NCBI GenBank assembly: GCA_963924555.1
Contig: OZ004584.1
Span: 7,439,001-7,503,000 of the forward strand
Direction: 5' to 3'
DNA length: 64,000 nucleotides
From: Crambe crambe
Taxonomy: Eukaryota; Porifera; Demospongiae; Poecilosclerida; Crambeidae
The translations under genes were made by a program, and so were the position numbers. Shown here in pieces: positions 6,701 to 57,851 of this stretch (positions within the stretch are counted from its first letter, which is position 1; each line of letters begins with the position of its first letter). Under the pieces are notes generated by a model. That model was not told where the DNA came from and did no database searches. It was given only the letters and a program-made list of their open reading frames with translations.

Positions 6701-7724
6701 GACTACTCATATAGCATAATGGTTATTATAATTATACACAGCCTTGAACATTTTAAAAATGATCATTAAGACATCAGGAAATATTATAGTTAGCCTTATT
6801 AGCCTTGTCCCCAGGCTTTCATGCACACAAAGAGGATGTACACACTGACTGCACATGCTCAGGTTTTTCAATAATTAGCTAGAAAAGGGGGGGGGCATCT
6901 GCCCCCCCTTCGATCCTGCCCCTGTCTTGCACGGGCCTCTCTCCTGCTCATTCAGTAAACATCCTCAGGGAATTCATAGGTTTAGCTATTAGCATGTGCT
7001 CACATAATCACATCTCTTGTGCACTCCAACCCTGCCATAGGCATAGGAAGCATGGGGGCCATGGGGGCCATGGCCCCCATGCTCTTTTATTCATGGGGGC
7101 TTGGCCCCCATGCCCTCTGAGCTACCAACTATACTCACTCTGACTGCAGATTAATGTTCCCCCCATTGCCCCCAAGGTATAAATATTTTTATAGGCTACT
7201 CCCTTTGTTGACCACAGGTTATTATGTACATGTAGTCACCAAAGGGAGTAATTAAGGACCAATTTGGGATACTTCAGAGTAGTAAGCATTTTTGGCTTCG
7301 CGCCTTGCACTGGAGGGGGCACATCCCCCTCCCACGCCCTCCCCCTTGCTGTGGCCTATGGCCACGCGATTGGTGAACTTCCCCCCAAGGTGAAATTCCC
7401 TGTTATTGCATATGATTGATGCCCCCGTGCTCTAAATCATCTTCCTACGCCTATGCCTGCAATGCATAGAAGTGTCCAAAGTCCAAAGCAGCCACACCTT
7501 AACTGCATCACACTGATGCATGTTATAGATTCCTGCATCTAAATTGGTACAGTTGTTGCCAACAAAATCGGTCTTCACAGATAGCTACATGTAATATTGT
7601 TGAAAGAGAGCTATGGAAGCCAAGGTGTGTTTTTAAAAATCTTTACCATAGTGAGTGTGGGAATTCAGTTGTCCTACAGCCTATATATACAGCCATACAG
7701 CTAGACTCTGTCTAGTTATAAAGA
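6701..7724. other. Intergenic stretch with one transposon
   Basis: No coding sequence recognised. It contains the 420-base element at 7036-7455 and a GC-rich, palindromic stretch around 6885-6910 (a run of G followed by a run of C). Confidence 0.5.
7036..7455. mobile_element. Non-autonomous DNA transposon with 5-bp target repeat
   Basis: The left end CATAGGCATAGGAAG and the complement of the right end CATAGGCGTAGGAAG differ at one base. CCTGC flanks both sides (7031-7035 and 7456-7460), consistent with a 5-base target duplication. The interior is rich in GGGGGCCATGG and CCCCC strings and has no long open frame. Similar GTAGGAA ends occur at 13584-13833 and 46960-47271, so this looks like a family; a hAT5-like origin is possible but not shown. 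Confidence 0.65.
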
Positions 7725-7855
7725 TAAGTGTTCGATGGCATATTGACTTTGGAAGAAAGGGTGATCCAGGAGTTGTTTCGCCATGTGCCATTCCATCGGA
7801 TCCATGCATAAAATCTGATGCATATTGTAACCACTTCATCTCCCTCCTCACATGT
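7725..7855 (-). pseudogene. Scrap of the last exon of a NACHT-kinase gene
   Basis: On the minus strand this matches the final exon of the gene at 29989-34366 (ERHMAKELLDHPFF region, 29996-30147), with a deletion in the middle and several substitutions. No other part of that gene is present nearby. It marks an old duplication of the kinase end. Confidence 0.65.
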
Positions 7856-17776: not shown

Positions 17777-20747
17777 TCAGATGGTAGGTAGCTTGATCCC
17801 ATAAGCCTGCAAATACAACAACCCAAAACTAAAAAGTCTAGCTATTAGCATTCATCTTGCCCCTTGATCATTCACTATAACTGCTATAACTTTCTCAATT
17901 CTTAACCAAATTCAAATTTCAAACATCAGCAGAGAGAGTGGACAATCGGCTCTCTGTTGATGCCTTAAACTAGAAGTTTGGTGAAGAATTAGCAGTTATA
18001 GTGAATGATCAAGGGGCAAGGTGAATGCAAATAGCATTAACCCTACAATTGGAGCAAGCTACGATAGAAACTGAATTGGTTTTGGTTGGCACCTACATGT
18101 AGCTAGCGATTATACAGCTTTAATTCTTTTCTCTCTATAGCTACTTGCTCTTAGCCCAGTTGAGAGTTCAAAGGTCACCAATGAAATGAAACCACCAAAA
18201 TAAATTTGCCACTTACCAGTAAGTTATGTAAGTCTGAGGATGATGGCCGTTCCTCTGGAGTCAACTTCAGACACGATAGTAGTAATTCTTGTATAATTGG
18301 TTCTTGACAGCTGATCTGTTAGAGATGATAATAGCTATTAATAGTAGACATGTTGTAATGAGCCATTCACCACCACCACCACCACCACCTTTATCAATCT
18401 TACCTGAGATAACCAGGAATCCACATCATATACCTCCTTATAGTATTCCGATGGGAACCACAAGGGATCTTCATCAAATCCTAGCTTCTGATAGTCAAAT
18501 GGTGCATCTTTTCCCTTGGCCATTGCATAAATGATACAGCCAAGGCTCCACATATCACATTTCAAATCGTATCCACAACCATAATAAGCACACACAACTT
18601 CAGGAGCCATATAAGGAGGGGTGCCTTCTCTTTCAAAGAACTTGTTATCTTCTTGTTCATTGAGATAGCTAGCTTCTCCATAATCACAAATACACAGACG
18701 GTGCTTCTCTTTATCCAGTAGAATATTAGCAGCTGGAAAAAATTGGAAGGAATAATCGTTATGAGTCTGTACAAGCTTAGAATACTTGCTATGACTGCCA
18801 TCTGGACCTCAAAGATTCAATGCTTGGTACTAATTGGAAGGAATAATCTTTATGAGTCTGTACAAGCTTAGCTACTACCTGCACCTCAAAGATTCAATGC
18901 TTGGGGTGTGCATACCAGCTACAGTACTGGTAAAAATAATAGCTAACATACGCTTCAAATCTCTGTGTGCAATATTCAAGCCATGAAAATGCTTAAGACC
19001 ACAGCTCATCTGTTTCGTATAATCAATAATCAGATTCTCATCAAGGGGACCATGATTCAGCTCATCTTCCAATGATCCTACAATAGCATACAATAATAAA
19101 AGTACAATTTTTGTAATACATGTACCCGGCATTCGTTCCATGAATATGTTGAAGGTTTCTTTTAAATATTGTTGATGGCTTGTCCAACCGAAGAATTTGA
19201 TGACATTCTCATGCCGTTGAATGGAATGCATAATCCTTGCCTCATTAAATGCATACTCTCTTTTGTCACTTCGGCTGGGATAATAGTAGTGCTTTAAAAA
19301 AACAACAACAAAAAAACAACAACAACAAAAAACAGTGATAAAATACCTCCACTGACAGTGATTATCCCGAAAAAGTTGTCCCAGAATGATTATAGTTCCC
19401 ACACATTAGGTGTAGGTTATGATTGAGGTGATTATAATAGAAGAGTTCCCTACCTGCTTTACTGCACATTGAGGATTCTTTCTGGTCTTGTCAATGACCA
19501 CATAAATGTTGCCTGAAGCTCCACTTCCGATCACGTCACCCTTTTCCCAATGTCTTCCTTCTTGATAACAGGGACTATCATCCTACAATATTATTTTAGT
19601 GAGCATGATGTCATAGTGATTATAGTTTTTCTTACCTCTGTACACTCCTGTGAAATAGGCAGATTTGAACTTTGATCTTTTGAATCAAAAGTTCCAACAA
19701 CCAATGAACTACTACTTTTGTTCTTCTCTTCTGCTTCCTGGATAGGTGTTAGAGAATTTTGTTCCCCTTCACTGACGATTATTTCCTCGCTGACTTCTTC
19801 AGGGGATTTGACAAAATTACTGTTTTCAGCTGCATGATCAGGAATCAAACCCAAACAAGTATCATTTTCTATTCGACGGTTTGTGTTAGGACTTGTAGGC
19901 TCAGATAGAGGACACTCATTAAATTTCATTGTCTTTCCAACTTCAATAACGGCCACTGCAGGGCCATGGGAGTGCTCTTCCTCTGGACAACTATTTACAT
20001 GCCAAAACATTGTTATAACTATAGAAGTGCTTATATAGTAAGCTAGATGCTGAAATCATAGATTTACTGTATAGCTAAACACACAATTTCTAAATTAGGA
20101 GCATGTAGCTATAACTATAATTAGCTATGTGCTGACTAGCTCTGACCCTTAGAGTCATGAATATGATAAGGGGTAAGCTAAATCATACGAATTAATACAG
20201 ACTGCATAGAACATACAATTTCTAAATTAGGAGCATGGTAATCATATTAATTACTCATGAATATGATCAGTAGCTATAGAGGTAAGCTAAATCATAGATT
20301 TAATTACGTATACAAACTAAATTAGGTAATCATGATTATGAGCTGACTCTGATCTCTACAACAGAGTCAAGTACTGAACTTTGTGTAACCCAATAATATA
20401 ATGGACATAATAAGCTTAGTTAGCTGGCTCCTTCAAAAAGTTATACACTGCGTGTTCTCCTAAATGATGCATGCATGTTCAGAGGCTGTCAGTATACTCC
20501 GAGAAATGCATTTCTCTGATTCTGAATTTGTGAATTCGTCTCCCCTCACCTAGCTAGTGGCCCTCCAGCCACACCCATGCATCTGCTAGAGTACTGCATT
20601 TATCGGCGGGAGAAAGAAAGAAAGAACAATTGGGTGTGGCTACGCGAGTAACATGTAAAGGAAGATTGCATGAGTAGCTGCTTACCTTAAATCCTGGGAA
20701 TCTTTGTCACTGCCGCGGGGGGTCCCATCATGGATCGTAATATCCAT
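17777..20747 (-). CDS. Protein kinase of the duplicated cluster, intact copy
   Basis: Exons in gene order: 20747-20686, 19990-19636, 19582-19454, 19291-19126, 19077-18952, 18732-18404, 18315-18217 and 17806-17777, giving 431 residues with all phases matching. The first 139 residues are a polar, Ser/Glu-rich linker. The kinase domain follows: Gly loop GSGASGNIYVV, Lys in CAVKQ, Glu in EARIMHSI, hinge FNIFMERMPGG, catalytic HRDLKPANILLD, metal-binding DYG in place of DFG, PPYMAPEV, DMWSLGCIIYAM and final PEERPSSSD. The closing peptide is AYGIKLPTI. All catalytic residues are present, so an active Ser/Thr kinase is likely; the GGSLEDEL-like hinge resembles MAP3K-type kinases. The start ATG at 20747 was chosen because its exon ends in phase 2, as the next one requires. 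The damaged kinase copy at 28366 has the same junction (QDL then AG). Confidence 0.85.
17848..18028. mobile_element. Short inverted-repeat element in the last kinase intron
   Basis: GCATTCATCTTGCCCCTTGA on the left is mirrored by TCAAGGGGCAAGGTGAATGC on the right, with arms of nearly 40 bases. The interior has a second inverted pair around GAGAGAGTGG and CTCTCTGTTG. The related kinase copy near 25,000 lacks it, so it is an insertion. Confidence 0.6.
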
Positions 20748-21214: not shown

Positions 21215-22199
21215 CTAGTTAAAAAGATAAGTGGCATAGTGACTCTGGAAGAAAGGGTGATCCAGGAGTTCTTTCGCCATGTGCCGTTCCATTGGATCCA
21301 CTCTCAAACAGCATTCGACAAAATCTGATACATGTCGTAACCACTTCATCTCCTTCCTCAATGTTGGTACCTGTGAATAAGAAGTTCAAATGATTCAACT
21401 AAAAATGACTGTCACCAATGAGACTAAAACATCTATGCCTGAAGCAGTAACAGTACAGTGTATTACGATGTATGGTTGAAGTTCCAAATAGAGCCCACTC
21501 AAGTCATACATATGCACAGTAAAATAAATTTTTTGTCCATATGATTGATTGAAGCTAGTACAAACCTTGAGAATCTTTTGGATCTTGGATGGCGGTATCC
21601 TGAGGGCATTTTCGACTCTTCCCTTCCACGAGATTCCGACTTTGATAGTAGTGAAGCAGTGTCATGGACAAGGACTTCTGACTCTCAGGACCTTCTTTTC
21701 CCACCATCAACCAAAGGCAGAGAACACCAAACGAAAAAACATCGCATTTCGTGGAAATTGGAGGTGAGAAGCAATCAGGGGAGCTGGATGTGATATGCAT
21801 GGAAGATTCAGGTGCTCTGAAGCCGTTGGTACCCACAGGGATGCAGTGATACTGTGGGGCCATTGCAAGCAACTGTTGTGCAGAGAGCTGAGATGAGGAA
21901 AAAGAGGCAGGGGGTAGCTGGTCGTTAGAGTCCAGCTGAATAGCAGCATCAAAGTCACAGATGACAAGCACATATTTCACTTCGCATGAGCACTCCAAAG
22001 GATGTTCGCAAGAGCAGTGGAACTTGAGGATGTTACTGGATTTCAAGTCTCTGTGGACGATATGTAAGGAATGGAGATAGGCCAGTCCTTGGAGGATGTG
22101 GGAGAGAATATAGTGCACGTTCCCTTGTATCGTTCCCATCAGATGAGGGTTGGAGCCTTTTCAGGATTAAATTTGGTGACCATATTTGCCAAATCACCT
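21215..22199 (-). pseudogene. Broken copy of the NACHT-kinase 3' end
   Basis: This matches exons 2 and 3 of the gene at 29989-34366 at high identity, including the introns: HRDLKSSNIL, the Cys-rich insert, CDFDAAIQLD and GTNGFRAPES can all be read at 21555-22139. A deletion removes the LHQAHKG stretch, one codon is lost in NILLK, and two bases are missing before the exon end, which shifts the frame. The last-exon part lies at 21215-21371. The NACHT exon is absent; at about 22300 the match stops and a death-domain scrap follows. It is a partial duplicate. Confidence 0.82.
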
Positions 22200-24632: not shown

Positions 24633-27600
24633 CAATCACATGACTGCAGCTATCACAATAGCATGCTATAGCAAATAAAATGTTATTTTGTTTCCAGTGT
24701 ATAATAATAGCTAGGGGGATGACAAACACAAACTATAAAACTAATTATAATAGGCTATAATACTACAGCAATACCCATTAGCTATAATCACAGTGTGTGC
24801 ATATAGATTATGAGTATAAATTACTGTACACAAACAATCACTATAAAATAATTATGGTAAGATGGTATTACCACTTCAGGGGGAAAAAAACCCTTGCGGG
24901 TGAAAAAAAAAAAAAGCCCTGGGGGAAAAAAAGTCAGTAACTTGATTTCAGATGGTAGGTGGCTTGATCCCATAAGCCTGCAAATATAAAACAACAACGA
25001 AACAATAAACATTAACCCTACAATTGGAACAAGCTACAATAGAAATTGAATTGGTTTTGGTTGGAACCTATACATGTAGCTAGCAATTATAAAACTGTTT
25101 TCTCTCTATAGCTAGCTAGCTAGCTACTTCCCCAGATATTGCTCAATCTAAGAGTTCAAAGGTCATGCCAATGAACTGATGAAATAAAATAGCCATTTAC
25201 CAGTAAGTTATGCAAGTCTGAGGATGATGGCCGTTCCTCTGGAGTCAACTTCAGACACAATTGTACTAATTCTTGTATAATAATATTGGTTCTTGAGAAC
25301 TGATCTGTTAGAGATGATAATATTAATAGTAGACATATTGTAATGAGCCATGTATCCAACCTCATCACCACCACCCACATTGCATACCACCTTTCCCTGT
25401 CCTGCCACTACTACCACCACCTTTATCAATCTTACCTGAGATAACCAGGAATCCACATCGTATACCTCCTTAGAGTATTCTGATGGGAACCACAAGGGAT
25501 CTTTATCAACTCTTAGCTTCTGATAGTCAAATGGTGCATCTTTCCCCTTGGCCATTGCATAAATGATACAGCCAAGGCTCCACATGTCACATTTCAAATC
25601 ATACCCACAACCATAATAAGCACACACGACTTCAGGAGCCATATAAGGAGGGGTGCCTTCTCTTTCAAAGAACTCGTTATCTTCTTGCTCATTGAGATAG
25701 CTAGCTTCTCCATAATCACAAATACACAGACGGTGTTTCTCTTTATCCAGTAGAATATTAGCAGCTGGAAAAATTGGAAGGGAAAAATTATGTCTGTACA
25801 AGCTTAGAATACTTGCTATGACTGCCATCTGGACCTCAAAGATTCAATGCTTGGGGTACTGGTAAAAATAATAGCTAACGTACGCTTCAAATCTTTGTGT
25901 GAAATATTGAAGCCATGAAGATGTCTAAGACCACAGCTCATCTGTTTCGTATAATCAATATTCAGATTCTCATCAAGGGGACCATGATTCAGCTCATCTT
26001 CCAATGATCCTACAATAGCATACAATAATAAAAGTATAATTTTTTATAATACATATACCTTGCATTCGTTCCATGAATATGTTGAAGGTTTCTTTTGAAT
26101 ATTGTTGATGGCTTGTACAACCGAAGAATTTGATGACATTCTCATGTTGTTGAATGGAATGCATCACCCTTGCCTCACTTAATGCATACTTTCTTTTATC
26201 ACTCCGTTTGGAATCATAGTAGTGCTGTTAAGATAAAAACATAGTGATCAATATATATGTCAATCCTTACCAACAATAGCTAATTAGTTCCTACAGGTAT
26301 GCTTCTATTAATTAAGTTAACATTTCCTACCTGCTTTACTACACATTGAAGATTCTTTCTGATATTGTCATTGACCACATAGATGTTGCCTGAAGCTCCA
26401 CTTCCAATCTTCTCACCCTTTTCCCAATCTCTTCCTTCTTGATAACAGGGACTATCATTCTACAATATTATTTTAGTGAGTATGCATGATATCATATGAT
26501 ATAATGATTATAGTTTTCCTTACCTCTAGCTCTGTATACTCCTGTGAAGTAGGCACATTTGAACTTGATCTTTTAAGTATCGCATGAAACTGGGTCCAAA
26601 AATTCCAACAACCAATAAACTTTTGTTCTTCTCTTCTGCTTCCTGGATAGGTCTTTGTTCATCTTCACTGACAATTATTTCCTTGCTGACTTCTTCAGGG
26701 GTTTTGACAAAATTACTGCTCTCAGCTGCATGATGATCAGGAACCAAACCAGTATCATTTTCTATTCGACGATTTGTGTTAGGATTTGTAGGCTCAAATA
26801 GAGGGCACTTGATTGTCTTCCCGATTTCAATTTCTGCCACTGTGGGGTCATGGGAGTATTCTTCCACTGGAGGACTATTTAATTGGAAATTATTATGTAT
26901 AGCTTATAGCTAATAAAATAAGAGGGGTATAGCTAAAAATGCTATAATCATGGTTCATAATCTGTCTCGTTCCCCCCCCCCCCCAAATGCTCATTCCTTC
27001 AATGATCATACAAGGGTTCCATGGTCCATGCACTTATAGCTTACTTGTGGTCACTGCTACTCGTTGCAATTCTAGTACAGGCACAACCACAGGGTATCAA
27101 CCCAGGAAGTGATATATATATATATATTATGATAATATCCAAATAAGAAACCTTACAGCCTATTTGAGTGCTACATCAAAGGGAAGCCACCAGTTGTAAT
27201 TCTAGTACATTGTGGCTACTTCAAAGGCCAGACAGTTGATATGAAGTGGCTACTATTATAACATGTCCAATTGAATTTTATGGTTTGTGATAGTACATCT
27301 CTATACACCGACAGTTTCCTGGAATGTATTAGGCCTGCCTGTCTAGACACTTCTATATCAGCCCTGGAAATTTATTGATGGTGCCTAAGTGTTGAGAAAT
27401 ATTGAAAAAAAATTTTTTTTAACAAGAGAAACATTAAAATTGAAGCTATAGGCCTATCAAAAAACGCAATTTACACAGAAATCTTTCAGTCCAATGCAGA
27501 ACAGTCTCAGCTACTACTATATTTAATAAAGAAGGTGATATCACCGGCAGCTTCTCAACATCAATATCGATGATACTGTCCATTTAGCCAGCTAGCTAGT

Positions 27601-29988: not shown

Positions 29989-32900
29989 TTAAAGAGATAA
30001 GTGTTCAATGGCATAGTGACTCTGGAAGAAAGGGTGATCCAGGAGTTCTTTCGCCATGTGCCGTTCCATCGGATCCACTCTCAAACAGCACTCGACAAAA
30101 TCTGATGCATGTCGTAACCACTTCATCTCCCTCCTCAATGTTGGTACCTGTGAATAAGAAAGCTGATTATTTAATAATATTCAACTAGCTATGATAATTA
30201 TAGTTTAAAATGACTGTCACCAATGAGACTAAACATATCTATGCCTGAAGCAGGATGTATGGTTAAAGTTCCAAATAGAGCCCACTCAAGTCATATGTAC
30301 ATGCACAGTAAAATACTCAATTTTCGTCCATATGATTAATTGAAGCTAGTACAAACCTTGAGAATCTTTTGGACCTTGGATGGCGGTATCCTGAGGGCAT
30401 TATTTCGACTCTTCCCTTCCACGAGATTCTGAGTTTGATAGTAGTGAAGCAGTGTCATGGACAAGGATTTCTGACTCTCAGGACCTTCTCTCCCCACCAT
30501 CAACCGAAGGCAGAGAACACCAAATGAAAAAATGTCGCATTTCGTGGAAATTGGAGGTGAGAAGCAATCGGGGGAGCTGGATGTGATATGCATGGAAGAT
30601 TCAGGCGCTCTGAAGCCGTTGGTACCCACAGGGATGCAGTGATACTGTGGGGCCATTGCAAGCAACTGTTGTGCAGAGAGCCGAGATGAGGAAAAAGAGG
30701 CAGGGGGTAGCTGGTCGTTAGAGTCCAGTTGAATAGCAGCATCAAAGTCACAGATGACAAGCACATATTTCACTTCGCATGAGCACTCCAAAGGATGTTC
30801 GCAAGAGCAGTGGAACTTCAGGAGGATGTTACTGGATTTCAAGTCTCTGTGGACGATGTGTAAGGAATGGAGATACGCCAGTCCTTGGAGGATGTGGGAG
30901 AGGATATAGTGCACGTTCCCTTGTATCGTTCCCATCAGACGAGGGTTGCCCTTGTGTGCTTGATGGAGCCTTTTCAGGATTAAATTCGGATTGTTCGTGA
31001 CCATATTTGCCAAATCACCTGGAAAAATTGTATATAGCCAGTAATCATTAGTCATGTACAAAGGCTATTACCAAAGGATGTATACAAAGTAATGACAACC
31101 ATTACCAGTTAGGTATACACAATAGTGCCGATGACTTTGACGACCATTACCAATGGTGACGACCATTACCAGATTTACATAATTGAAATGGGAAAGGACC
31201 ATTGCATGCTCCACATCTGTGTGCCTACTTTATTAACCTTACACGCATGCCCATCAACTACTGTGCGCTGACCATGTACATTTAGGGGATTTTAATGTAA
31301 GCAAACTTCTAAGGATGTTATGTAGGAAATGGCAAATAAGTAAATAATCGTGTCTCATGATCACAAAAAGGATATCAGATAATTCCCTAAACCTAGACAT
31401 ATGGACTATGTTAAGGCGACATCATTAAAGGATGCAGAGTGCATGTCTACACACACTAAGAGGAAAGCATAAGGAAAAAAAAAAACACCCCTAGGTCCTT
31501 CTAGCTTCGAAAATGCCCAAAGTAAAATCTAATAACAGCAGGAGTTGTAAGACCACTTAATTTTAGTACCAAAATCAAACCAATGATAAATACTATTTTG
31601 TACCCCTGGTGACGTACATATCTATCTATCTATCTATTCACCTTCCTCCCATTTACCTGTCATTTTTGGCATGATATGGTAGCAGTGGTACCTCCTCTTG
31701 TGCAACGGGTTCTCCTTCCCCCACATGAAGGCCAAGAGAGGCATCACGTTCTTGTGCTTCAGTTTGGTCATGATGGCGTACTCCTTGGACCTGTATGCAG
31801 TCTTCTTTATTGCCACATTCACCCCACGGATGGTACCGGCAAATATTTGTCCATTCCCTCCACTGCTTATCAGGATGTCCTCATCTGGTAAAGGGTAGAT
31901 ACGATTGCAAGCTATCTTTTCAGGGATCGAAGTGAATACCACAGTGCCTGGCCTCATAGCAGTAGGAGTCCTGGATCGTTCTGTGGGACGGACAGCTGTC
32001 TCCTCCATAGGAGAATCATACTGAGTCATAATTGGGCTCTGCGTCATCAAAGATGGCCTTTGAGTCACACTTGTCTCTTGATCTCGTGGATTATATCCCA
32101 TAGAATCTTGGCTCTGAATCAGCAACGATTCTGTCACCACACCATCACTCTCAACAACAGTATCAGCAAGAGTAGTTTCAACTTGATTCTGGGCTTGCTC
32201 AGTAGTGGACGCAGTGATGGTGTTAGAAGGAAGGAATATTATTGGTGCCACTGTGACTCCAGCAACGTCACTCTCAAGAGTGGGAATAAGCATAGAAGGC
32301 AACACACTTTCGGTCTTCAATGGAATTAGCTCTTCGGCGACGTTGCACTGAACTAACTCTTCGAACTCATAGAGAGTCGATAGAAGTCGCTCGTAAACAT
32401 TGTCAGGTAAGGATTTACCACTCAAGACAATTTCAAATTCCTCAGTACTATTAGGCAATATGAATTGGATACATTTTAGATGTGGTTTGAGAAAGATCAC
32501 TAGCTCCATTGCCTTTCCATTGTGGAATTCATTCAGGTGGACCGAAGTGACATCTCTTCTTCGTGACTTTACCTTGTTTGGGTCGTTCTCCACTGGAAGA
32601 AAGTGCATCGGTACGATTGGGTTAAATGTAACACCATCCTCAAATGCTTTTTCGAAGCACTTACAGCTCAAGAAGCTGATGTATGCAGGATTGCTGGCAT
32701 CACCCTTTAGTTTGAGAGTTGAAAAAAGCTGAAGTACCCTTTGAAGAATCTCGCGTATTGCTCTGCAGTACAGCAGGTCGAGCTTGAATCTTTCGTCTTG
32801 TGATTCAAAATCACCTCGAGTAGATTGCCCTGTTGTCCGTTGGCGCCTGGAAGACACAGAAGTGATTGATCTCGGTTTTAATTGGATCGTTTGATTGCTA

Positions 32901-34366
32901 AGGCTCGTATTTTCATGCTGTATGATCGGAATACCCGTATACAAAGCAAAGTTTCTAACAAAACCAAAATTATCAGGATGAAACTCAATTATCCACTCTT
33001 TAAAGCCAGAATGATTAATCATATCAACAAGGCTAGTTATCGATTTATCCTCACCAATCAATAACTCAATATCGAAAATTTTACCGCATTTTACTCCCAA
33101 CTTCTTCCACAAAGTTGATTCTTGCGTTTCCATTAAACACTTAGAAAATACTCGCAAATGCAGTGACTCCTCTTCAAGATTTAAACAATGAACTAGCAAC
33201 TCATTGAGACTAGCCATCATCATCCTGGTCGGGTTGTACTCATCTCCCTTCTGCACAGAGAGTCCATAAAAAAATTGCAACCATCCATGGTATTCGCCAC
33301 TTAACAATTCCCGAACATGCTCAGTTAAAAAATAAAGCTGGTCAAGTGGAGGCCAGTTATGTAGAGCAAATGCGGCAAAAAAATCACGGATTGGAGGAAC
33401 CGGAAACCAATATAAGGCCTTTTTTATGTCTGCACACACAGAAGGATACTTACAAAATTCTACCATGCCTAGTTTTTCAATTTCATCGAGCGAAGATATT
33501 TGATTTTCTAAGCAGAAAGTAGACAAGAAAATCATAGAATTATGCTTAGTCTTGTCAGTCAAGTCAGCAAGAGCTAATTCTGAGATTACTTGCACTGATT
33601 TTTTATATTCTTCCGGAGATGAGTGTAAGCTATCTATTTTAACCTCACCTTCTCCGAATTTATTGCATTCTCTGGTCATAATTGCACAGATTATTTCATA
33701 CACGATTCTTGTCAGTGTTAATTGTAAGGTCCTAAATTTCTTTACCTTAAGCACATTTAATAGCTCAGTGCAAATTAGAGGAATTTTACACATCTCCCTT
33801 AAGACAGAATGCTCTTCAAGTAAGGCATTTATTTGCTGAAACTCTTCAAATTTTGTGATGATTTTAAAGAATTGCTTAATATCATCATCTTCTTCAACTG
33901 TTGCAGTAAAGAATCCTTGGATAGTATAATGTTTCATAACATCACAGAAATGATCGTAGAGATGATCAATTCCACTCGGACGTGTAGCTATTAAAACAGT
34001 CGTATTCTTTGATACCTCATCGTTAATACGAGAGTAAAATAAAGCTTTATCCCACTTACACTTTTTGTTGAATTCATTGAAACCATCAAGCAGAAAGACA
34101 AAGTGTTCTTCTGATGGGTCCTTTTTATCAAAATGTGCCATTAAATTTTCTTCGTTCTGATGGAAGTGTGTCTCCTCTAAATTTAAGTAGATCCACTTTT
34201 CCACCTTCTCATTAACATATTTTAGTAAATAAGTCTTTCCAATCCCTACATCTCCTTCAATAATAATAATTGATTGTTCGGAAAACTTGGATAGTTCATT
34301 TATTAAGTCATCACCAGATCGCGACTCGTTCTGTGATGATAAAAGATGAACTTCTTGATATGACAT
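29989..34366 (-). CDS. NACHT-kinase fusion protein, gene 1
   Basis: Three exons in gene order, 34366-31657, 31018-30357 and 30147-29989, give 1,176 residues with phases 1 and 0 matching. ATG 34366 was chosen because it aligns with the start of the divergent partner (MSYQ versus MSNY). Residues 38-45 are the Walker A GDVGIGKT, about 90-97 the Walker B FLLDGFNE, and about 126-132 ATRPSG, all as in NACHT/STAND NTPases. A middle region (about 530-680) with REILQRVLQLFS and ISFLSCKCFE is shared with the partner but is not a domain I know. The kinase starts near 840 (GGNGQIFAG, NVAIKK), then HRDLKSSN (960-967), a Cys insert (974, 976, 982, 984), DFD (994-996) and GFRAPES. It is probably an intracellular sensor with its own kinase output. 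DFG is changed to DFD, so activity is uncertain. Confidence 0.85.
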
Positions 34367-35315
34367 TATAATCTCCGTCTCCGTCTTTGCAAGTGCTGGT
34401 ACGTACTGCAACTGAAACAAAGTACAATATTATTATTCATATGAACATTGCTATCCATTCATGGAACAAGTCACGGGATTAGTATCGCACACAGAATACT
34501 GCTAGCAAATTAGTGTATTACCCTTACAATGTTCATTGATCAGTACATTAGCTCTATGTCTGATTTACTTTTGCTATAGGTAGTGGCTACAATCAGCACC
34601 ATGTGTCAGCCTCAATTCAGATGTAAGCCTCTCACATTGCATTTGTGTTTATATACCGCCAATGCCATTCATAACATAATTGTCATACTGGCATGACAAG
34701 ATCATACCATCTTAGTGTTGATTATTTGTAAAAAAAATTATAGTGGGGTGACTTCAGATATGGCGACTACAGTACTGCCTTGTATCATACTACTCATGCT
34801 CTTCATACTCTTAAAGCTTTAGGCAGAGCAGCTGAAAATTGTGCAGCTCAAAAGTTTGAATATCACAAAGATGGGCAAGTCACCTCACTTCCAAAGTTAC
34901 CCCACCTACCATAAGGTAGGTCAGGGTAATTCTGAATACAGGGTAATTATGAATACTTCATGGAGCTGCATAGCCAAACTTCAGATACAGGTAGGACCTA
35001 CCTGCAGTTTGGTAAGGTAAACGTCAAAGATATCCTGTAAAAAAAAAAAAGAAGTACCCTGATTATCTCCTGTTATTGGCAGAGGGAACTTACATGTGAT
35101 TTGGCCGATCAGGTCATATCTTGCGCGCGGTTAGCTAAGGTACTTCCGGAATTCCCCGAGGAAACTCCCTGGGGATTCCCCCCTTTTGTTTTTGCATGCA
35201 GAACCCGGCGGCCCGCGGCCGCGCATATAAAACGACTATTTCAGGGTGAAGACTATTTCAGGGTGTGTCCTTTTTCCCTTCTATACAGCTCTATGGTACA
35301 AGAAGGATCCAGAAA
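34367..35315. promoter_or_regulatory. Shared upstream region of two divergent NACHT-kinase genes
   Basis: The start codons of the two genes face away from each other across these 949 bases. There is no coding sequence in between. Possible acceptors (TTTCAG near 34412 on minus, TATACAG near 35287 on plus) hint that both genes may have an untranslated first exon. The right third is GC-richer (GCGGCCCGCGGCCGCGCATATAAAA at about 35210-35231) with a TATA-like ATATAAAA. Promoter function is inferred from position. Confidence 0.5.
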
Positions 35316-38300
35316 ATGTCAAATTACTTAGAACTAGCTCGGGTTCAGTATACTAGAACCAATTCTTGTGCACAAGTTAGATTCGATATATTCCAAATAA
35401 AGAACACCTCAGGCACTGAAGTAAGTCTATTGGACACCTTTACAGCTACCAAAACTGTCTGTATCGCTGGACATGCTGGAGTGGGAAAGTCGTATTTAGC
35501 TCGCAAATTTTTTTCTCGCTGGTTAGAGACCAATAAGCCGAAACAAGTAATGTTATATGTGGACTTGTGTCTCTACCAAACCCATGATGATTTTCAAAAC
35601 TTACTGGAAAGAAGTGTCCCTACTCTGTCTAAAAATGTAGTTGAAGATATCGCTAATGCTTTGGTCTCATCAGAAGGTGATAACTTTATAATAATACTAG
35701 ACAATATAACGAAAGAGATGCTAGAAGTGAAGACATCAATCATTCACAAATTGCTGTGCCACAAACTGTACCCAAAGGCATCGTTCATGATCACTACCCG
35801 ATTCACTGCTGTAAATGCTGTAAAGAAAGTCATGACACTGCCGTGCAGTTACATTATTCTTGAAGGAATAAAAGATGGTCATGAAAGGGAAATATTGGAT
35901 GTTCTCTGCACTGAATTTAAAGCCGATCGAATGATGGAGTACATCAGGTACAATTGCTTAGAATTGTGTAAGATTCCTGGGTTAATTACTATAATTTTAA
36001 AGGCATTTAGAACTAAATCACCAGAAACATTTACGAAAATGGTGGAGCGTTTGGTTATTATGTTAATAAATAATCACATCAAAGAATATAATTTAAGCTA
36101 CGGAGTCATTGAATCATTGAGTAACTTACCTGATGAAATATCGAGCCATTTTTCATTGGTGTGCAAACTGGCTTACCTTTTGATCGAAAATGATAGTGAT
36201 TCCTGTGGGTATATGGAATTTTCCAAATTAATAACTCTTAACACATTCTACCCGTCCATTTCTCAAGAAAACATTGGTTTAGGATTATTACAATTGGATT
36301 CTCTAGATGGTGACTCCTATAAATTCGTCCATTTAACAATTCAAGAGTTTTTAGCGACATATTATATAGCTAAAGAGCCTCTACTTGATCAAGTTCTCAT
36401 GTTAAACAAATTGTTACTAAAAAAAGAACGGACATTCTTTACTGATGCAAGATGCTCGAGGCTTTATAAATTTTATTTCGGGATGGTGCACTTACTAGAG
36501 TATAAAGATTCTTCAAATGCAGTGAAGTCGAAATTCGAAACTGTCTGTGCTATGCGAGGTTTGTTAGAAGCTATAGGCAGTAAGCTTTGCATAGATGATG
36601 AACAAGATATTCAGACAATAAAACTTACATTTCTTTATCAACTTTTGCATGAATGTCAAGATGCTAACATGGTACGTAAATTTATGAGCAAGAGAGAGAG
36701 ATACCTGAAGCTCAGTCTTGACCCAACGAAACTCCCAGAGCCTTTGATTAACATTATAACGTTTATAATACTTCATTCTGGAATCTCGAAATGGCAGATA
36801 GACACACCAGAACGAATGTTCCACTCCGTACAGTATATTTCTATGAGTATTGAAACCGAGAAACCTCAAATTGAACTACGTACAAATGTGACTGATAAAA
36901 ATCTCTTTGTATTACAACCTCTGGTGAAAGCTACAGGGAAATTGAAACCGTATGCTCCACTTTCCATATACGTGAGGTGTATGAGGGAAATATTGCATCG
37001 TATATTACAATTATACTCTCCCATTAAGTTGAAAAGTGACAGTAGCGAGCCTTCTTACATCTCTTTTCTTGGCTGTGAATGCTTGAAAGAGAAACTCGAA
37101 AAGGAGCAGATGTTGGCTATTGAGCCGATACACGCAATACATTGGTTGACGTCACCTATGAAAGAAGACGAGATTAAAAGTTTGACTTTGAAGAGAACTA
37201 AAGAAAATACAGAGTATCATAGTCACATGACCATGCACAATATGCAGCAGGTTGAGATGATTTTAATGGTATCCCCTATGCCAAATCGTATCCATTACGT
37301 AGATCCTTCGACAAAGGATAAAATACCCATACAATTGTGCAGGAATCCTTTACCTTATGATCGTGAAGGACAAATAGTCACAAGCTTAAAGCATCGCTTG
37401 ACAACTGATATCAAACAAAGCACTATAGTGACCCTTAGCGAATTGAGTAGCAACTTGGCCTCTTGTATGGTGGCTCTCCCACTTCCCATACCTAAATCTG
37501 ATAACGATCTCTTCTCACGTGTTATAACTAGTGTTGATAACCTATGGTCTAGTCAAAATCAGATTGAGGCAAGGGGGGAAAACACAGAGGCTGTAGAAGA
37601 ACCAGACCCTGATAATGAAGATGCAGGCAATGAAGGTGACTATGTTGTAGCTGATTCACCCTATATAAGCAGCTATGCCAACTTTAATAATCAGTTTTCC
37701 AGTGTTCAGCAAAGTGTTCAACAGCAAACTCAGTCGCAACAGAGACCCATAGCCTCCCATCCAGGAACTGTGGTGTACTCTACGATCCCCACTATATTCC
37801 CCATGGATCAAATACTTCAAACCCCAGATGAAGCCCACCTGATAAAGAGAGGAGGTAATGGGTCTATATATGCTGTAAGTTACGGTGGATTCGATTTTGC
37901 TGTTAAAAAAACTGCATATAGAAACCGAGAGATCCAAATTCATAAGAAACTCAAAAACCCAAATATTGTTGAGTTGAGTTGCCTAATGTTTGGGCATCAG
38001 CAACCACAATACAAAAGGAGGTATTTTTGCTATCATTTCATGCCTAGGGCCACAGGGGACTTAGCAAGAATGGTCACCGATAAAGTCGATTTAACAATGG
38101 TTAACTTGAGCAAAAGATACAGAGACAATCCTTTAACGCTTGGCTCCATGCAAGGAAACTGGAAATATATTTTGAAAGAATTGCTTAAGGGTCTCAAATA
38201 CATGCACTCAATGAATATAATACATCGCGACATGAAAGCATCGAATGTTCTCATCAAGATGGCATGTTCCTGTGACAATCCTCTTATTTGTACTTGCCAT

Positions 38301-39116
38301 ACAAAGTGTTCAGTTCAAATTGCAGACTTTGATGCGGCATTACAATTAGACATGTCGAATAATCTTCAGTCGTCACCTTACACGACACGGCAACCACTTC
38401 AACATGAGTACAATAATGTTTATCAAGTTGTTCCCGTGGGAACGGATGGTTACCGTGCGCCAGAATCAGCTCAGCAAGTTATCAGTAGTCACTTGGAAAC
38501 GATCCAGCCTCCTCTGACAGTGAAAGCTGATATTTGGGCAGTGGGTTTGATTGTCATGAGAATGCTGAATGGATACAATGGACCTATTAAACAAAGACAA
38601 GTAAGCACCTGTAGGTGACAATGAGTGCCAGCACCTCTTTTTTTTTTTTCAGGGCCATTGTGTGTATAAACCACTGTGGTCAGTTCCTGCTCCATTGGCT
38701 ATTGTTTGTGTTGGCAGTTTTGATAGCCAAATGGGTTTGTTTTTGATAAGGTCTAGACTCTATTAGAGAGGAGGGCATGTTTTTTTGTCTCTCCAAATCC
38801 CTTTATCAATATTATTGTGTGTATTAAGAACAAACTATGATTTAACCTTTTCCTCCTGTTATTATAGCTTTCAACGTTACTGCTTTATTACGAGCAAGAA
38901 AAACACAGAGAAGCCTCAGACCGCTACCTTGAGATCCCTCATTTCATGGAAGTGAAAAAAGCTGACGTGGACAGGCTGACAGGATTGGACCGATTCCATT
39001 CAATCAGGAACAATTGGATCAAGAAAGCTGTGGATTGCATTGCTGATTGTGTCCAGGTGGACCCTTTGAAGAGACCCACTGCTACAGAACTCTTAACACG
39101 TCCATTCCTCTTTTAA
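35316..39116 (+). CDS. NACHT-kinase fusion protein, gene 2
   Basis: Two exons, 35316-38600 and 38868-39116, joined in phase 0, give 1,177 residues. The upstream in-frame codon at 35265 is GTG, so ATG 35316 is preferred. Residues 52-59 are Walker A GHAGVGKS; IIILDN follows as Walker B. The shared middle region has REILHRILQLYS and YISFLGCECL. The kinase has GGNGSIYAV, FAVKK, HRDMKASN (970-977), Cys 984, 986, 992 and 994 in C-x-C-x5-C-x-C, DFD (1004-1006), GTDGYRAPES and ADIWAVGLIV, ending with KRPTATELLTRPF. Gene 1 has a second intron after ATG in the kinase that this gene lacks (GDL junction). The pair is old: the proteins align over their length but differ greatly, unlike the near-identical duplicates elsewhere in the window. 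The likely role is ligand or stress sensing coupled to phosphorylation (inference). Confidence 0.86.
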
Positions 39117-49264: not shown

Positions 49265-49422
49265 GGCCACTATTTGTTGATCATAAGTTTCTCATCAGAT
49301 GGTTTTGCTCAGACTGATGCGGGCAGGTGGTATAGTATAAGCCATTATGTCATTATTTTGATAGTAGAGTAAACTATAATGCGGACAGGGGATGAGACAC
49401 TTGTAATCAACCAATAGTGGCC
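49265..49422. mobile_element. PIF/Harbinger-type short element, copy 2 (158 bp)
   Basis: The ends GGCCACTATTTGTTGAT and the complement of ATCAACCAATAGTGGCC form inverted repeats, and TAA flanks both sides (49262-49264, 49423-49425). It is a shortened relative of 22475-22721. The right end stops 13 bases before the ATG of the next gene, so it probably supplies its 5' untranslated region. Confidence 0.78.
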
Positions 49423-49435
49423 TAAAGAAGTCGAA

Positions 49436-51367
49436 ATGAGCTCTGATAATACTGCTACTTACTCAGAGGTGAATGTAACAGAGAAGAAGAAGAGCCATCT
49501 TGTTTCTAAGAAAGGTGATCAATCTGAAATACCGGTATGCTCCAATATTCCCACGTATTCTGAGATCAATCAAGTGAGTGAGACATTTGCTCCAAGGAGT
49601 GCTGATACAGCATTTGATAATCAAGTATATTCCATGGGCACATCAGACAATACATATTCAAAGTTAAATAGAACAGTTGAACAGTCTCGTCAGGCAGATC
49701 CAGCAACTCCTCAGGGCAATGTGCTTGGGATTAAGACTGCATTTGATAATCAAGTGTATTCCATGGGCACATCAGACAACACATATTCAAAGTTAAACAG
49801 AACAGTTGAACAGTCTCGTCAGGCAGATCCAGCAACTCCTCAGGACAATGTGCTTGGGACTAAGACTGCATTTGATAATCAAGTGTATTCCATGGGCACA
49901 TCAGACAACACATATTCAAAGTTAAACAGAACAGTTGAACAATCTCGTCAGGCAGATCCAGCAACTCCTCAGGACAATGTGCTTGGGACTAAGACTGCAT
50001 TTGATAATCAAGTGTATTCCATGGGTACATCAGACAACACATACTCAAAGTTAAACAGAACGGTTGAACAGTCTCGTCAGGCAAATCCAGCAACTCCTCA
50101 TAACGATGTGCTTGAGACTAAGACTGCCCCACACAAAGAGAAGTCAAAGAAAGACCAGTGTGAAAGGAACTTAGTATGGATCGTGATCAGTGTTAATATC
50201 CTGCTACTCCTTGCAGTGGGTGTACTTGCTGTGGCTGAACTTGTCCTAGTTTCGAAGTTGAATTCCGAAATAGTTTCCCTCAGAGCATCACTCCATCTCA
50301 CACTTACAGAAGATTCAAATTTATATGATGAAATAGTCTCCCTCAGAGCATCACTCTCAAATTCCAGTGCTTCACTGAATGATGAAATAGTCTCTCTCAG
50401 AGCATCACTTTGTCTCGCACTTGCAGAAATAGAAGTATCACTCTCAAATTCCAGTGTTGTGCTGAGTCAAAAATTTTCAACACTTGAGAATGAGACACAG
50501 ATTCACTTTGATGGGTTGGATTCAAGAGTGAATGGCCTTTATACCATACACTTGACTGGAAGGAACTCTGATAATCCTGCTACTTCATGTTTCCATGTCT
50601 TGCAGTTGAATTCACCCTCCCCATCAGGTCACTACTGGATCAGGTCCTCCAATGGCTCTGCTGTGCATGTGTACTGTGACATGACCAGGTCGTGTGGTGG
50701 AGTCACTGGAGGGTGGATGAGAGTGGTTAGTCTGGACTGGAGCACTGAATCTCTTCCATGTCCTTATGGATTCAGAAAACGCGGCCATTCAAACATCCAC
50801 ACTTGTGGAATTGGATCCACATTAACTGGTTCTTGTTCTTCTTTGATCTTCAAAACATACAGCACTGTGTATAGTAGAGTCTGTGGCAAGATAAATGCTT
50901 ACCAAGTTGGTAATACTGATGCCTTTGGTGCTTATGAGCGTGGCTCAAGTATTGACTCTAATTATGTGGATGGTGTTAGTCTTACACATGGAAGCAATCC
51001 TAGGAGACACATCTGGACTTTTGCTGCTGCTATTAATGATAATCCTAATTCATCACATTCGAGTAGCCTCTGTCAGTGTGTGAAACCAGGAATCATGGCC
51101 CCTCCTTCTTTTGTTGGAGCTGACTACTTCTGCGATACAGGAAGTCGAAGTGGAGCACGTGATGGGCAGTTTTACCCTGATGATCCCCTGTGGGACGGTG
51201 CTGGGTGTGCTTCTACTAGCACGTGCTGTTCCTTCAATAACCCCCCGTGGTTCCACAAGCAACTCCCATCAGCCACCACTGACGACATAGAGATAAGGGC
51301 GTGTCGTGATGAGGGAATATACATTGAAGATATCGCCATATCAAGCATTGAACTTTATGTACAGTAG
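49436..51367 (+). CDS. Type II membrane lectin-like protein 1 (fibrinogen-like)
   Basis: A single exon of 643 residues. Residues 1-243 are cytoplasmic and polar, with Tyr-x-x-hydrophobic motifs (TYSEVN, TYSEIN, TYSKLN four times) and a 43-residue unit repeated four times. Residues about 246-271 form one membrane span (LVWIVISVNILLLL), with a basic stretch (KEKSKKDQCERN) before it, so the C terminus should be outside. Residues about 272-366 form a heptad-rich stalk (LNSEIVSLRASL). The ectodomain (about 368-643) opens as a fibrinogen C-terminal domain does (SGHYWIRSSNGSAVHVYCDM, GGWMRV), then diverges into a Cys-rich region ending IELYVQ. Such proteins may bind glycans or microbes, with the tail signalling through SH2 partners; this is inference. 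An AATAAA signal follows at about 51406. The product is complete, with no broken residues. Confidence 0.83.
   Translation: MSSDNTATYSEVNVTEKKKSHLVSKKGDQSEIPVCSNIPTYSEINQVSETFAPRSADTAFDNQVYSMGTSDNTYSKLNRTVEQSRQADPATPQGNVLGIKTAFDNQVYSMGTSDNTYSKLNRTVEQSRQADPATPQDNVLGTKTAFDNQVYSMGTSDNTYSKLNRTVEQSRQADPATPQDNVLGTKTAFDNQVYSMGTSDNTYSKLNRTVEQSRQANPATPHNDVLETKTAPHKEKSKKDQCERNLVWIVISVNILLLLAVGVLAVAELVLVSKLNSEIVSLRASLHLTLTEDSNLYDEIVSLRASLSNSSASLNDEIVSLRASLCLALAEIEVSLSNSSVVLSQKFSTLENETQIHFDGLDSRVNGLYTIHLTGRNSDNPATSCFHVLQLNSPSPSGHYWIRSSNGSAVHVYCDMTRSCGGVTGGWMRVVSLDWSTESLPCPYGFRKRGHSNIHTCGIGSTLTGSCSSLIFKTYSTVYSRVCGKINAYQVGNTDAFGAYERGSSIDSNYVDGVSLTHGSNPRRHIWTFAAAINDNPNSSHSSSLCQCVKPGIMAPPSFVGADYFCDTGSRSGARDGQFYPDDPLWDGAGCASTSTCCSFNNPPWFHKQLPSATTDDIEIRACRDEGIYIEDIAISSIELYVQ
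49610..50125 (+). repeat. 129-bp coding minisatellite, four units
   Basis: Units start at 49610, 49739, 49868 and 49997, exactly 129 bases apart, so the frame is kept. They encode TAFDNQVYSMGTSDNTYSKL and the following linker. The paralogs at 52528, 56682 and 54382 have one unit or a related single stretch, so the expansion is specific to this gene. Confidence 0.92.
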
Positions 51368-51676
51368 TGTGCTGATCATCATATTCATCATAGACTATTG
51401 TAGTTCAATAAATAATCAGTCATTTAGTCCAGTACTGTCCATTATTAATAGCCAGTTAATTTAGATGTTGCTACAGTATCATCATATTCTATGGGCAGGG
51501 TGTTGTATGTGATTTCTATAAAATTTAGGAATCTAACTACTCAGACTAGGAAAGATGGAAGTAGTAGTGTGCTGAGACCATCAATATACATAGCAGGATT
51601 CAGAGGAATGAGCATTGCACAAACAGTTGATTTGTTTTTATACAACTTATAACTGAACTGTAAGTTAGTACATGAG

Positions 51677-51772
<96 letters not shown>

Positions 51773-51785
51773 ATTAAACAAGTAT

Positions 51786-51817
<32 letters not shown>

Positions 51818-52527
51818 GATTAAACAAGTATATACTGACTCATTGACTCAATATACAATTCATTGATTTTTATGTGTCTATGGTTTCTGCTTGGGACTGT
51901 CATATCATATAGCTTAGTATGAGAATAAAATTAATAGAGTGTTGAGGTTTAGCTATGGAATTATGCAGAGAACATTAAGCTTCATAATGACTGTAAGCAA
52001 TTTCTGTAATACCTGTGTGAGGGTACCATTGGTCAATTTTTTAGTCCCATCTGGCAATATTGAACTGTAGCAATTGAAATGGGTGAAAATGAAAGCTTCT
52101 CATGGATCTGGTGATTATAAATTTCGTGCTGTACTTCCCTTCGTGTACTTCCATATCCCCTGCATAGGTGGTTAATATACAGGCCGCAGAGGTGTTGGAA
52201 GCAAGATTTGATTGGTCAGGCCTGTAATCCCCCAGTTCAACAATTTGCTATATTTGGGCATCATAGGATACTTCCTTTTGTTATTGATTGATTTTAACAT
52301 GGTATGTTAACTTTTTTTCCCCCAAAATATTGGTCAGGCCTGTTCCATGCTGTATTGGCTACCAACTAACATGGTAAGATATTGCAAGAATTAAGAAAAG
52401 CATCCTAAGAATATACCCAAATAATTAAGGAAATGTCTGAAGTGTTGCATGTACATAACTATTGCTTGACGGAGACCTTGAGAAATTAAAGGTAGACTTG
52501 ATCACACGAATGAATGCACACAAAGAA
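51368..52527. other. Spacer with GT microsatellites
   Basis: It contains (GT)n at about 51678-51770 and again at about 51793-51816, then the inverted partner (52149-52350) of the repeat at 27893-28110. Much of it recurs in shorter form at 55753-56681, showing the spacer was duplicated with the genes. Confidence 0.7.
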
Positions 52528-54052
52528 ATGAGTGCTGACTACACTGCCACTTACTCTGTGGTGGATCTAACCAAGAAGAAGAAGACTCGTCTTGCTGCTA
52601 AGAAAGACAAACCACCTGAAATACAGAGCTCTGATATTCCAATGTATTCTGAGATCAATCGAGTTAGTGAGACATCTGCTCCATGGAGTGCTGATACTGC
52701 ATTTGATAATCAAGTGTATTCCATGGGCACATCAGACAACACATATTCAGTGTTAAATAGCGAACAGACTCATCAGGCAAATCCAGCAACTCCTCATGAC
52801 AATATGCCTGGGACTAAGACTGCCTCACACAGAGAAGTCAAAGAAAGACGGAACTTAGTATGGATCGTGATCAGTGTTAATATCCTGCTATTCCTTGCAG
52901 TGAGTGCAGTTGCTGTGGTCGCACTTAAAATTGAATTCCAAAATGGTCTCCAACAATCAATCACTCCCACTTGCAGAAGTTCCAAAGCTGAATCATCACT
53001 CTCAAATTCCAGTGCTAGCTATGCTGAGTCAAAATTTTTCAGCACTTGATAACAAGATACGAAATATCTTTGAACAGTTTGAGTCAAGAGTGAACAATCT
53101 TTATGCCTTACATTTGATCGGAAGGAATTCAGATAACTCAGCCACTTCATGTTCTCATGTCTTGCAGTTGAATTCCTCCTCCCCATCAGGTCACTACTGG
53201 ATCAGGTCCTCCAATGGCTCTGCTGTGCGTGTGTACTGTGACATGACCAGGTCGTGTGGTGGAGTCACTGGAGGGTGGATGAGAGTGGTTAGTCTGGACA
53301 TGAGAGACAACAGTAGCCGATGTCCCAGTGGCCTCAGGCTGGGGACTCCCAGAAATTGTAGTCTTGAACTAAGAATATGTGAAATTAGTATGAACTCTCC
53401 TAATGGAAATTGTTCTTCAAATAGTTACACTTCACATGGTCTTCAGTATTCCCATGTATGTGGGATGATCAGAGCCTACCAGTACAGGACACTCGATGCA
53501 TTTCCTCTATAAATAGAGGTTTATATAAATTCCAACTATGTTGATGGTGTGAGCCTGACTCATGGAGTGCCTCCCTTAAGGAAGCACATTTGGACTTTTG
53601 CTGCAGGTAAATAATTATAGCTAGCTATAAAGATGTACATATATCTACTGATACAATTTTTTTTTTTTTGGGGGGGGGGGGGTGGGAGGTGGGGTAGCTA
53701 CAGGAATTGAAGTGGGAACTATTATTATTATGAGAGTAGTAATTAAAATCATGCGGAACATTGAATAGGGGAGGATTGCGACTCTAATCGACCTTCATTT
53801 CTCGAAGACAGTCATTTCATATTTTGTGGTGGAATTGTTGGTACCATTCATGATGTCTGCTATGATGAATTTCCTTTATGGGACAGGGAAGACTGTGGGT
53901 CCAATGTGGATTGCACTCTCAATGATCCTCCATGGTTCTACAGACGACTTCCAGAACTCACCTCTGACGATATAGAGATGAGAGTGTGTTGTGACCAACC
54001 TCACGATGATGAAGTCATTGGAATTGAAGCATTTGAAATTTACGTCCAGTGA
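52528..54052 (+). pseudogene. Lectin-like gene 2, two-exon type, broken
   Basis: The start (MSADYTATYSVVDLTKKKK) and the membrane span (LVWIVISVNILLFLAV) match the gene at 56682. After the span about 14 bases are missing and about 4 are inserted in the stalk, so the membrane part and the ectodomain are in different frames (52528-53049 versus about 52904-53512). The ectodomain is then cut by a stop after LDAFPL, where the paralog reads on. The second exon (from about 53768, EDCDSNRPSFLED...) ends at TGA 54052 and is open. With these breaks it is probably a pseudogene. Confidence 0.75.
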
Positions 54053-54107
54053 AGAACAAGGGAGTGGATGATCAATATTTTTAAACTTCATTCACGAAAT
54101 AACTTAG

Positions 54108-54108
<1 letters not shown>

Positions 54109-54160
<52 letters not shown>
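54109..54160. repeat. (CA)n microsatellite
   Basis: About 25 CA units, 60 bases past the stop of the broken gene. A shorter (CA)n is at the matching place after 59990. Confidence 0.9.
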
Positions 54161-54161
<1 letters not shown>

Positions 54162-54381
54162 ATACCCCATGTGATCACAATTTCATTCTTGTACACATTC
54201 CATTGGTAGTCAGCATGTTTTAGACCTTAGCTATCTATCGAGGTCACTATTGTGTTCCTCAAAATACTGTTGGGAAAATCCTGTTTGGGAAATTCTGTAT
54301 TTTCTCTAAATAACACTCAACCTCCCATAAATGGCATATACTTTGTCCTTTTGCACACTAGAGGTTCAAGCAGTCGCAAAA

Positions 54382-57820: not shown

Positions 57821-57851
<31 letters not shown>

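Follow-up and report, generated by a model that had tools for sequence, protein, structure and literature searches.

Can an animal NLR carry its own kinase? NLRs usually reach a kinase via adaptors or partner chains, and in vertebrates separate NLR and RIPK chains cluster to signal. The question is raised by a stretch of 64,000 nucleotides from the sponge Crambe crambe (assembly GCA_963924555.1, contig OZ004584.1, positions 7,439,001 to 7,503,000, forward strand), referred to here as the window, in which two adjacent genes, A and B, each join a NACHT-type NTPase and a C-terminal kinase in one protein. From their sequence, we lean toward reading A and B as co-regulated intracellular NLR-like receptors whose output would be the C-terminal Ser/Thr-type kinase.

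Gene A lies on the minus strand in three exons. Exon 1 (31657..34366) encodes the NACHT domain (residues 20-200), the winged helix and HD2 (201-480), the middle region (526-665), and the kinase N-lobe. Exon 2 (30357..31018) carries the HRD motif (960-962), a CxC-x5-CxC insert, DFD (994-996), and APE (1041-1043), and exon 3 (29989..30147) holds the kinase end and the stop codon. Gene B lies on the plus strand in two exons. The first (35316..38600), an open exon, encodes NACHT, winged helix/HD2, the middle region, and most of the kinase; the second (38868..39116) holds the kinase end and stop codon. The genes are arranged head to head, with 949 bases between their start codons. This arrangement, with proteins of 1,176 and 1,177 residues, had been described in an earlier note on this DNA, and stop-free translations (gene A, 1,176 amino acids [aa]; gene B, 1,177 aa) confirmed the coordinates, strands, and sizes. 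The proposed junctions, 31657/31018, 30357/30147, and 38600/38868, were also right; all three introns run GT...AG and keep the frame. No intron position is common to the two genes.

The NACHT-kinase fusion claimed for both genes held as well. Pfam found both domains above its own cut-offs in gene A (NACHT, E value of 1.1e-6; Pkinase, 1.9e-25) and in gene B (NACHT, 4.7e-10; Pkinase, 3.2e-28). In gene B, the NACHT domain, the middle region, and nearly the whole kinase fall within a single open exon of 1,095 codons, and in gene A the NACHT domain, the middle region, and the first kinase lobe share exon 1. Thus, the fusion is independent of any splicing guess. For gene B, separate mRNAs for NACHT and kinase are unlikely because one uninterrupted exon holds both. 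Chance can be excluded as the source of the open frames, since, given how often stops occur in the window, 1,095 open codons have a probability of about 1e-30 per start, and the two proteins are 42% identical in the kinase and 35% identical in the middle region.

What kind of receptor do the N-terminal halves represent? The best 19 matches to the gene B NACHT half beyond gene B were fetched from the genome; one (L022), which was cut short, was dropped, and 18 were compared. These were picked for their likeness to B and are not a random sample. Aligned with these 18 NLRs, A and B share the standard NLR core of NACHT, winged helix, and HD2, and the NACHT part of an A-plus-B profile matched human NLRP3 (E, 1.5e-11). 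Walker A reads GDVGIGKT in A and GHAGVGKS in B, and sensor 1 reads ATR and TTR, respectively. The genome searches scored only the best candidates. The gene B NACHT half had at least 83 matches in the genome, B included (83 of 187 candidates scored), and in the search for the NACHT family 103 of 232 candidates were listed, each of them above the cut-off, with A and B absent from the list.

Other familiar NLR parts were not found. No LRR family matched protein A or B in Pfam up to an E value of 1, and the Pfam results for A and B contained no death fold, CARD, PYD, or BIR; both modeled proteins start at NACHT. Open frames of at least 40 aa between the genes measured 41 to 91 aa on the plus strand and 40 to 49 aa on the minus strand. 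Judged by the length of these frames only, which were not profile-scanned, there was no candidate for a hidden N-terminal domain. Since no N-terminal death fold is evident and a TATA box stands 90 bases before the gene B start codon, the kinase is the only recognizable output domain.

A shared middle region of unknown type had also been noted. It is present in both proteins at 35% identity, but it narrows to about 140 to 150 aa (A, 526-665; B, 551-700), and the part before it aligns with the NLR winged helix/HD2. A poorly conserved linker follows, and then the kinase. The gene B version (36966..37418, plus strand) served as a 151-aa query; the gene A version (32372..32791, minus strand) was located by the genome search with it and by the A/B alignment. 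Pfam gave no match up to an E value of 10. The genome search (E up to 1) gave three matches among four candidates, namely, B, A, and a stop-bearing fragment on contig C14. Of 57 pattern matches in viral contigs and 87 in prokaryote genomes, none was confirmed as a relative. Some comparison NLRs continue at this place into sequence that, by eye and unscanned, looks LRR-like. Identity between A and B is 21% in NACHT (two-sequence alignment), 18% in the winged helix, and 22% in HD2, compared with 35% in the middle region and 42% in the kinase. Thus, the C-terminal half is the better conserved cassette.

The kinase of A has in common with that of B Lys854, Glu862, HRD (960-962), Asn967, Asp994, APE (1041-1043), Asp1065, and Arg1153. 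The main catalytic residues, the metal-binding aspartate among them, are thus kept in both. The CxC-x5-CxC insert, between the catalytic loop and DFD in both kinases, possibly binds metal too. In a single-sequence PDB search, the best match of the B kinase was yeast IRE1 (E, 1.1e-11); with the A-plus-B profile, MAPK, STE20-type kinases, and NLRP3 ranked above IRE1. The B kinase query (E up to 1e-5) hit 10 genomic places, nine on contig C6 at or near the locus and one on contig C19. With this query and threshold, no close parent kinase was found elsewhere in the genome; the one match beyond contig C6, that on C19, covers 40 aa at 43% identity (L042), and by eye its matching open reading frames (ORFs) resemble an ordinary MAPK. 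In PADLOC, the B kinase matched mad6 (E, 1.4e-25) and other defense kinases, and A gave one match (E, 0.0078). None of the NCBIfam matches, that to MADS6 kinase among them, came near its cut-off. These matches were read as general kinase likeness.

Are the two genes controlled together? Three nonoverlapping kappaB-type sites (GGRRNNYYCC; starts at 35148, 35160, and 35171) lie within 34 bases (35148..35181), about one helical turn apart, in the 886 intergenic bases examined (34430-35315), and a TATAAAA box follows at 35226..35232 on the plus strand. No triple within 40 bases arose in 300 shuffles of the window, 3,000 of the intergenic stretch, or 20,000 local 200-base shuffles. For the stricter pattern GGGRNNYYCC, the window contained 16 matches against 6.2 expected, a number reached in none of 100 shuffles (palindromes counted on both strands). 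Outside the window, 39 loci (190,071 bases, some overlapping; the eight loci inside the window left out) contained 14 kappaB sites, one pair, and no triple. All three Rel-homology matches were above Pfam's cut-off and lay within about 5 kb on contig C9, and the genome likely holds an intact NF-kB gene. To judge from these motifs, A and B look like they share one control region, with putative kappaB sites and predicted transcription starts near 35256 for B and upstream of 35000 for A. An out-of-frame ATG at 35293 opens a short frame (MVQEGSRKCQIT) that overlaps the gene B start codon; it is a possible translational brake on gene B.

How would such proteins work? An NF-kB-type signal would raise genes A and B together. 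A ligand or partner on the middle region would then free the nucleotide switch, and the NACHT cores would assemble under nucleotide control. Assembly would gather the kinase domains, allowing trans-phosphorylation and an onward signal, all within one chain. The parts of this scheme have known counterparts. NOD1 and NOD2 recruit RIPK2, and IRE1-type kinases are activated by clustering. In both, an oligomeric sensor gathers kinases, and the B kinase has IRE1 as its top PDB match, in the single-sequence search only. However, sensor and kinase are on separate chains in NOD/RIPK2, and the sensor of IRE1 is another domain. The NOD-RICK link has been described previously (PMC2323615).

Several points weigh against this reading. 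The gene A start is less certain than that of gene B, as a splice acceptor lies just upstream and 5' exons are possible. The kappaB motif was chosen after being spotted by eye, and its rarity was gauged by shuffles and 39 loci only. A kappaB-like pair also occurs at L037 4295-4318, where it falls within the stop-to-stop frame of an ORF that encodes a DDE_3 transposase domain; such a pair near a mobile element calls for caution on the kappaB sites. Stop codons fall within two of the three Rel-homology matches, which could reflect introns or decay. In both kinases DFG is replaced by DFD, so kinase activity may be altered. This replacement would suit a pseudokinase scaffold, whose kinase fold would bind partners or ATP without phosphorylating, but the lysine, glutamate, HRD aspartate, asparagine, and metal-binding aspartate are kept in both proteins, and we consider a scaffold very unlikely.

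The last such point comes from other NLRs. The C-terminal kinases of barley Rpg5 (PMC4246468) and of nine Sordariales NLRs (PMC12258605) have been proposed as decoys. For A and B, this would make the kinase a bait that mimics a microbe-attacked kinase, with the NACHT part reporting its disturbance. The nine fungal proteins are T-NACHT NLRs with a C-terminal PKinase that keep the "complete canonical tripartite architecture" (PMC12258605). They resemble A and B in combining a NACHT protein with a C-terminal kinase. However, their kinase is CHK2-like, whereas in A and B neither an N-terminal effector nor repeats were found and the genome search with the B kinase yielded no close parent kinase. 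In addition, no other part is as well conserved between A and B as the kinase. A decoy is therefore improbable in our judgment. Output is preferred because the searches of A and B gave no further effector domain, while the nine fungal fusions retain all three parts. Thus, the earlier view of a kinase as an unusual NLR output stands as to its rarity, but NLR-kinases are known in plants (PMC4759884) and fungi, and the output role is a conditional one, given the decoys proposed for Rpg5 and the fungal fusions.

Do A and B act as a pair? Their switch motifs differ in a complementary way. Gene A has a Walker B of canonical type (LLDGFNE), but its winged-helix patch, FPVPPIRDFFA, has Val323 in place of the histidine of the motif FxHxxQEhxA. 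Gene B keeps His339 (FVHLTIQEFLA), but its Walker B is degenerate (ILDNITK), with the paired acids replaced and a Glu one position further on. Consensus NLR motifs were taken from PMC2323615. Both the winged-helix His and the extended Walker B are kept in all 18 comparison NLRs, 15 of which have DGxDE and 3 EGWDE as Walker B; the His of L032 escaped the script's pattern and reads YSFLHLSMQEF in the alignment. Human Ipaf/NLRC4 has the DGxNE form of gene A (PMC2323615). Loss of the His alone is not unique, since five human NLRs (NALP6, NALP8, NOD5, CIITA, and NAIP) also lack it (PMC2323615). Furthermore, NLRC4 H443P, which affects the same His (numbering as in PMC2323615), is a disease mutation, but it led to less speck formation and less cytokine than other mutations did (PMC6281029). 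These mixed data weaken the idea that loss of the His makes a receptor strongly autoactive.

The complementary changes suggest that A and B may work within a single complex and divide the roles between them. Plant pairs offer a lead, not proof: RGA4, with an unusual MHD motif, is autoactive, and RRS1 works with a mutated P-loop (PMC4246468). By this analogy, A would be an easily triggered executor, lacking the His that keeps an NLR in its ADP state, and B a hydrolysis-poor sensor or brake, with the His kept and Walker B degenerate. Both would be produced together under NF-kB control, sit in one complex, and signal directly through their own kinases. Such an animal counterpart of the plant paired NLRs is a tentative idea, and we think it rather unlikely as a whole. 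The nearest arrangement is barley Rpg5/RGA1, in which a plant NLR with a C-terminal kinase is teamed with a second NLR (PMC4246468). Like A and B, it places two STAND-type receptors, and a C-terminal kinase, in one locus. However, the plant proteins have NB-ARC and LRR with a kinase in one partner, whereas A and B have NACHT, no LRR found, and a kinase in both. Rpg5 and RGA1 act as a pair in the plant; a functional pairing of A and B would be a prediction from gene arrangement and motifs, and no common descent is implied.

A and B might instead be a by-product of inverted duplication, that is, two independent adjacent NACHT-kinases with no functional pairing. The locus is indeed rich in local duplicates and fragments. 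A close copy of the gene A kinase exons, with several missing stretches, occupies 22197-21233 on the minus strand; it comprises a broken copy of exon 2 (21566..22197; 8, 17, 3, and 2 bases missing relative to A) and a copy of part of exon 3 (21233..21370). Sequence comparison found the latter and a broken copy of exon 3 at 7667..7855 (minus strand). About 27 kb before the window, at 7,411-7,412 kb on contig C6, there are scrambled B-type fragments that include a 374-base tandem repeat. No further intact copy or larger gene family was found in genome searches with the B middle region and B kinase, only fragments that have stops or lack bases. A duplication by-product would also fit the low identity of the NACHT halves (21%) and the lack of a shared intron position, but it leaves aside the compact shared control region with its kappaB triple and the complementary motif changes, and we give it a low probability. 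The promoter, the motif changes, and the decayed copies go beyond the earlier note.

The history of the NACHT halves was also considered. From NACHT to HD2, the alignment of many sequences gives 17% identity between A and B, and their identities to the 18 other genomic NACHTs are 16.6 to 20.7% for A and 19.1 to 23.4% for B. In a NACHT tree of 20 rows, A and B paired at 89/82, both on very long branches. Without A, B joined L029 at 78/91; without B, A stood at the drawn root. As the pairing rests on very long branches, the tree does not establish a common origin of the two NACHT halves.

The earlier note had suggested a signaling cluster, which is a fair description. The window contains two Death matches that narrowly miss Pfam's cut-off (E, 0.00035 and 0.0011) and a third with an E value of 0.084, and its kinase ORFs at 25208-25843, 18338-18808, and 18875-19405 pass the cut-off. 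A unit of death-domain-like ORFs and kinase exons is repeated at 2.8-5.5 kb, 16.6-20 kb, and 23.9-26.9 kb, with pieces 77-95% identical. On contig C6, within 10 kb upstream of the window, are a TRAF-type MATH domain (L037 655-1173, plus strand; E, 1.4e-40) and a caspase domain (L037 6646-7659, minus strand; E, 6.8e-57). Together with the NACHT and Rel-homology matches, these two point to an animal as the likely source. Of 121 cathepsin-like matches, considered as possible silicateins, five were read, and all five have CGSC, a result that does not bear on the species. At L035 2418-3291, a B-type kinase exon fragment containing stops makes up a 374-base unit that is repeated 2.3 times. A tandem array of related ORFs runs from 49418 to 62751 and on into L038-L040. 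By eye, these ORFs resemble type II membrane receptors whose C-terminal part is fibrinogen-like and whose tail has tyrosine motifs (YSEI and YSKL); the single ORF scanned gave weak Pfam matches only. One array ORF has a 129-base (43-aa) tail module four times at 49610-50127.

How new is the combination among animals? Bona fide NLRs of the sponge Dysidea avara are NACHT-LRR proteins with CARD, Death, or other N termini (PMC12909245). They have a NACHT-type core, as do A and B, and the same motifs occur in NACHT loci of the C. crambe genome. In contrast, A and B have no LRR or N-terminal death fold found and a kinase at the C terminus. The legend of Fig. 2 of that paper names no kinase partner, and the paper has 64 other NACHT architectures besides (PMC12909245). 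A sea anemone gene combines kinase, Death, TIR, and Roc/COR, with no NACHT (PMC5094078), and about 21 NACHT domain combinations have been counted in amphioxus. In the text passages of the open-licence PMC papers searched, those on sponge, amphioxus, ctenophore, and sea anemone included, no animal NACHT-kinase fusion was found. Within this limited search, the NLR-kinase combination is thus already known in plants and fungi and was not found reported for animals.

If our reading is true, a chain of the A/B type would lead from sensor to kinase within a single protein, a compact system that ties nucleotide switching directly to kinase activation. Animals too would then have evolved integrated-kinase NLRs, possibly as sensor/executor pairs, like plants. 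The complementary motif changes offer a concrete, testable prediction on how the two proteins may divide their labor.

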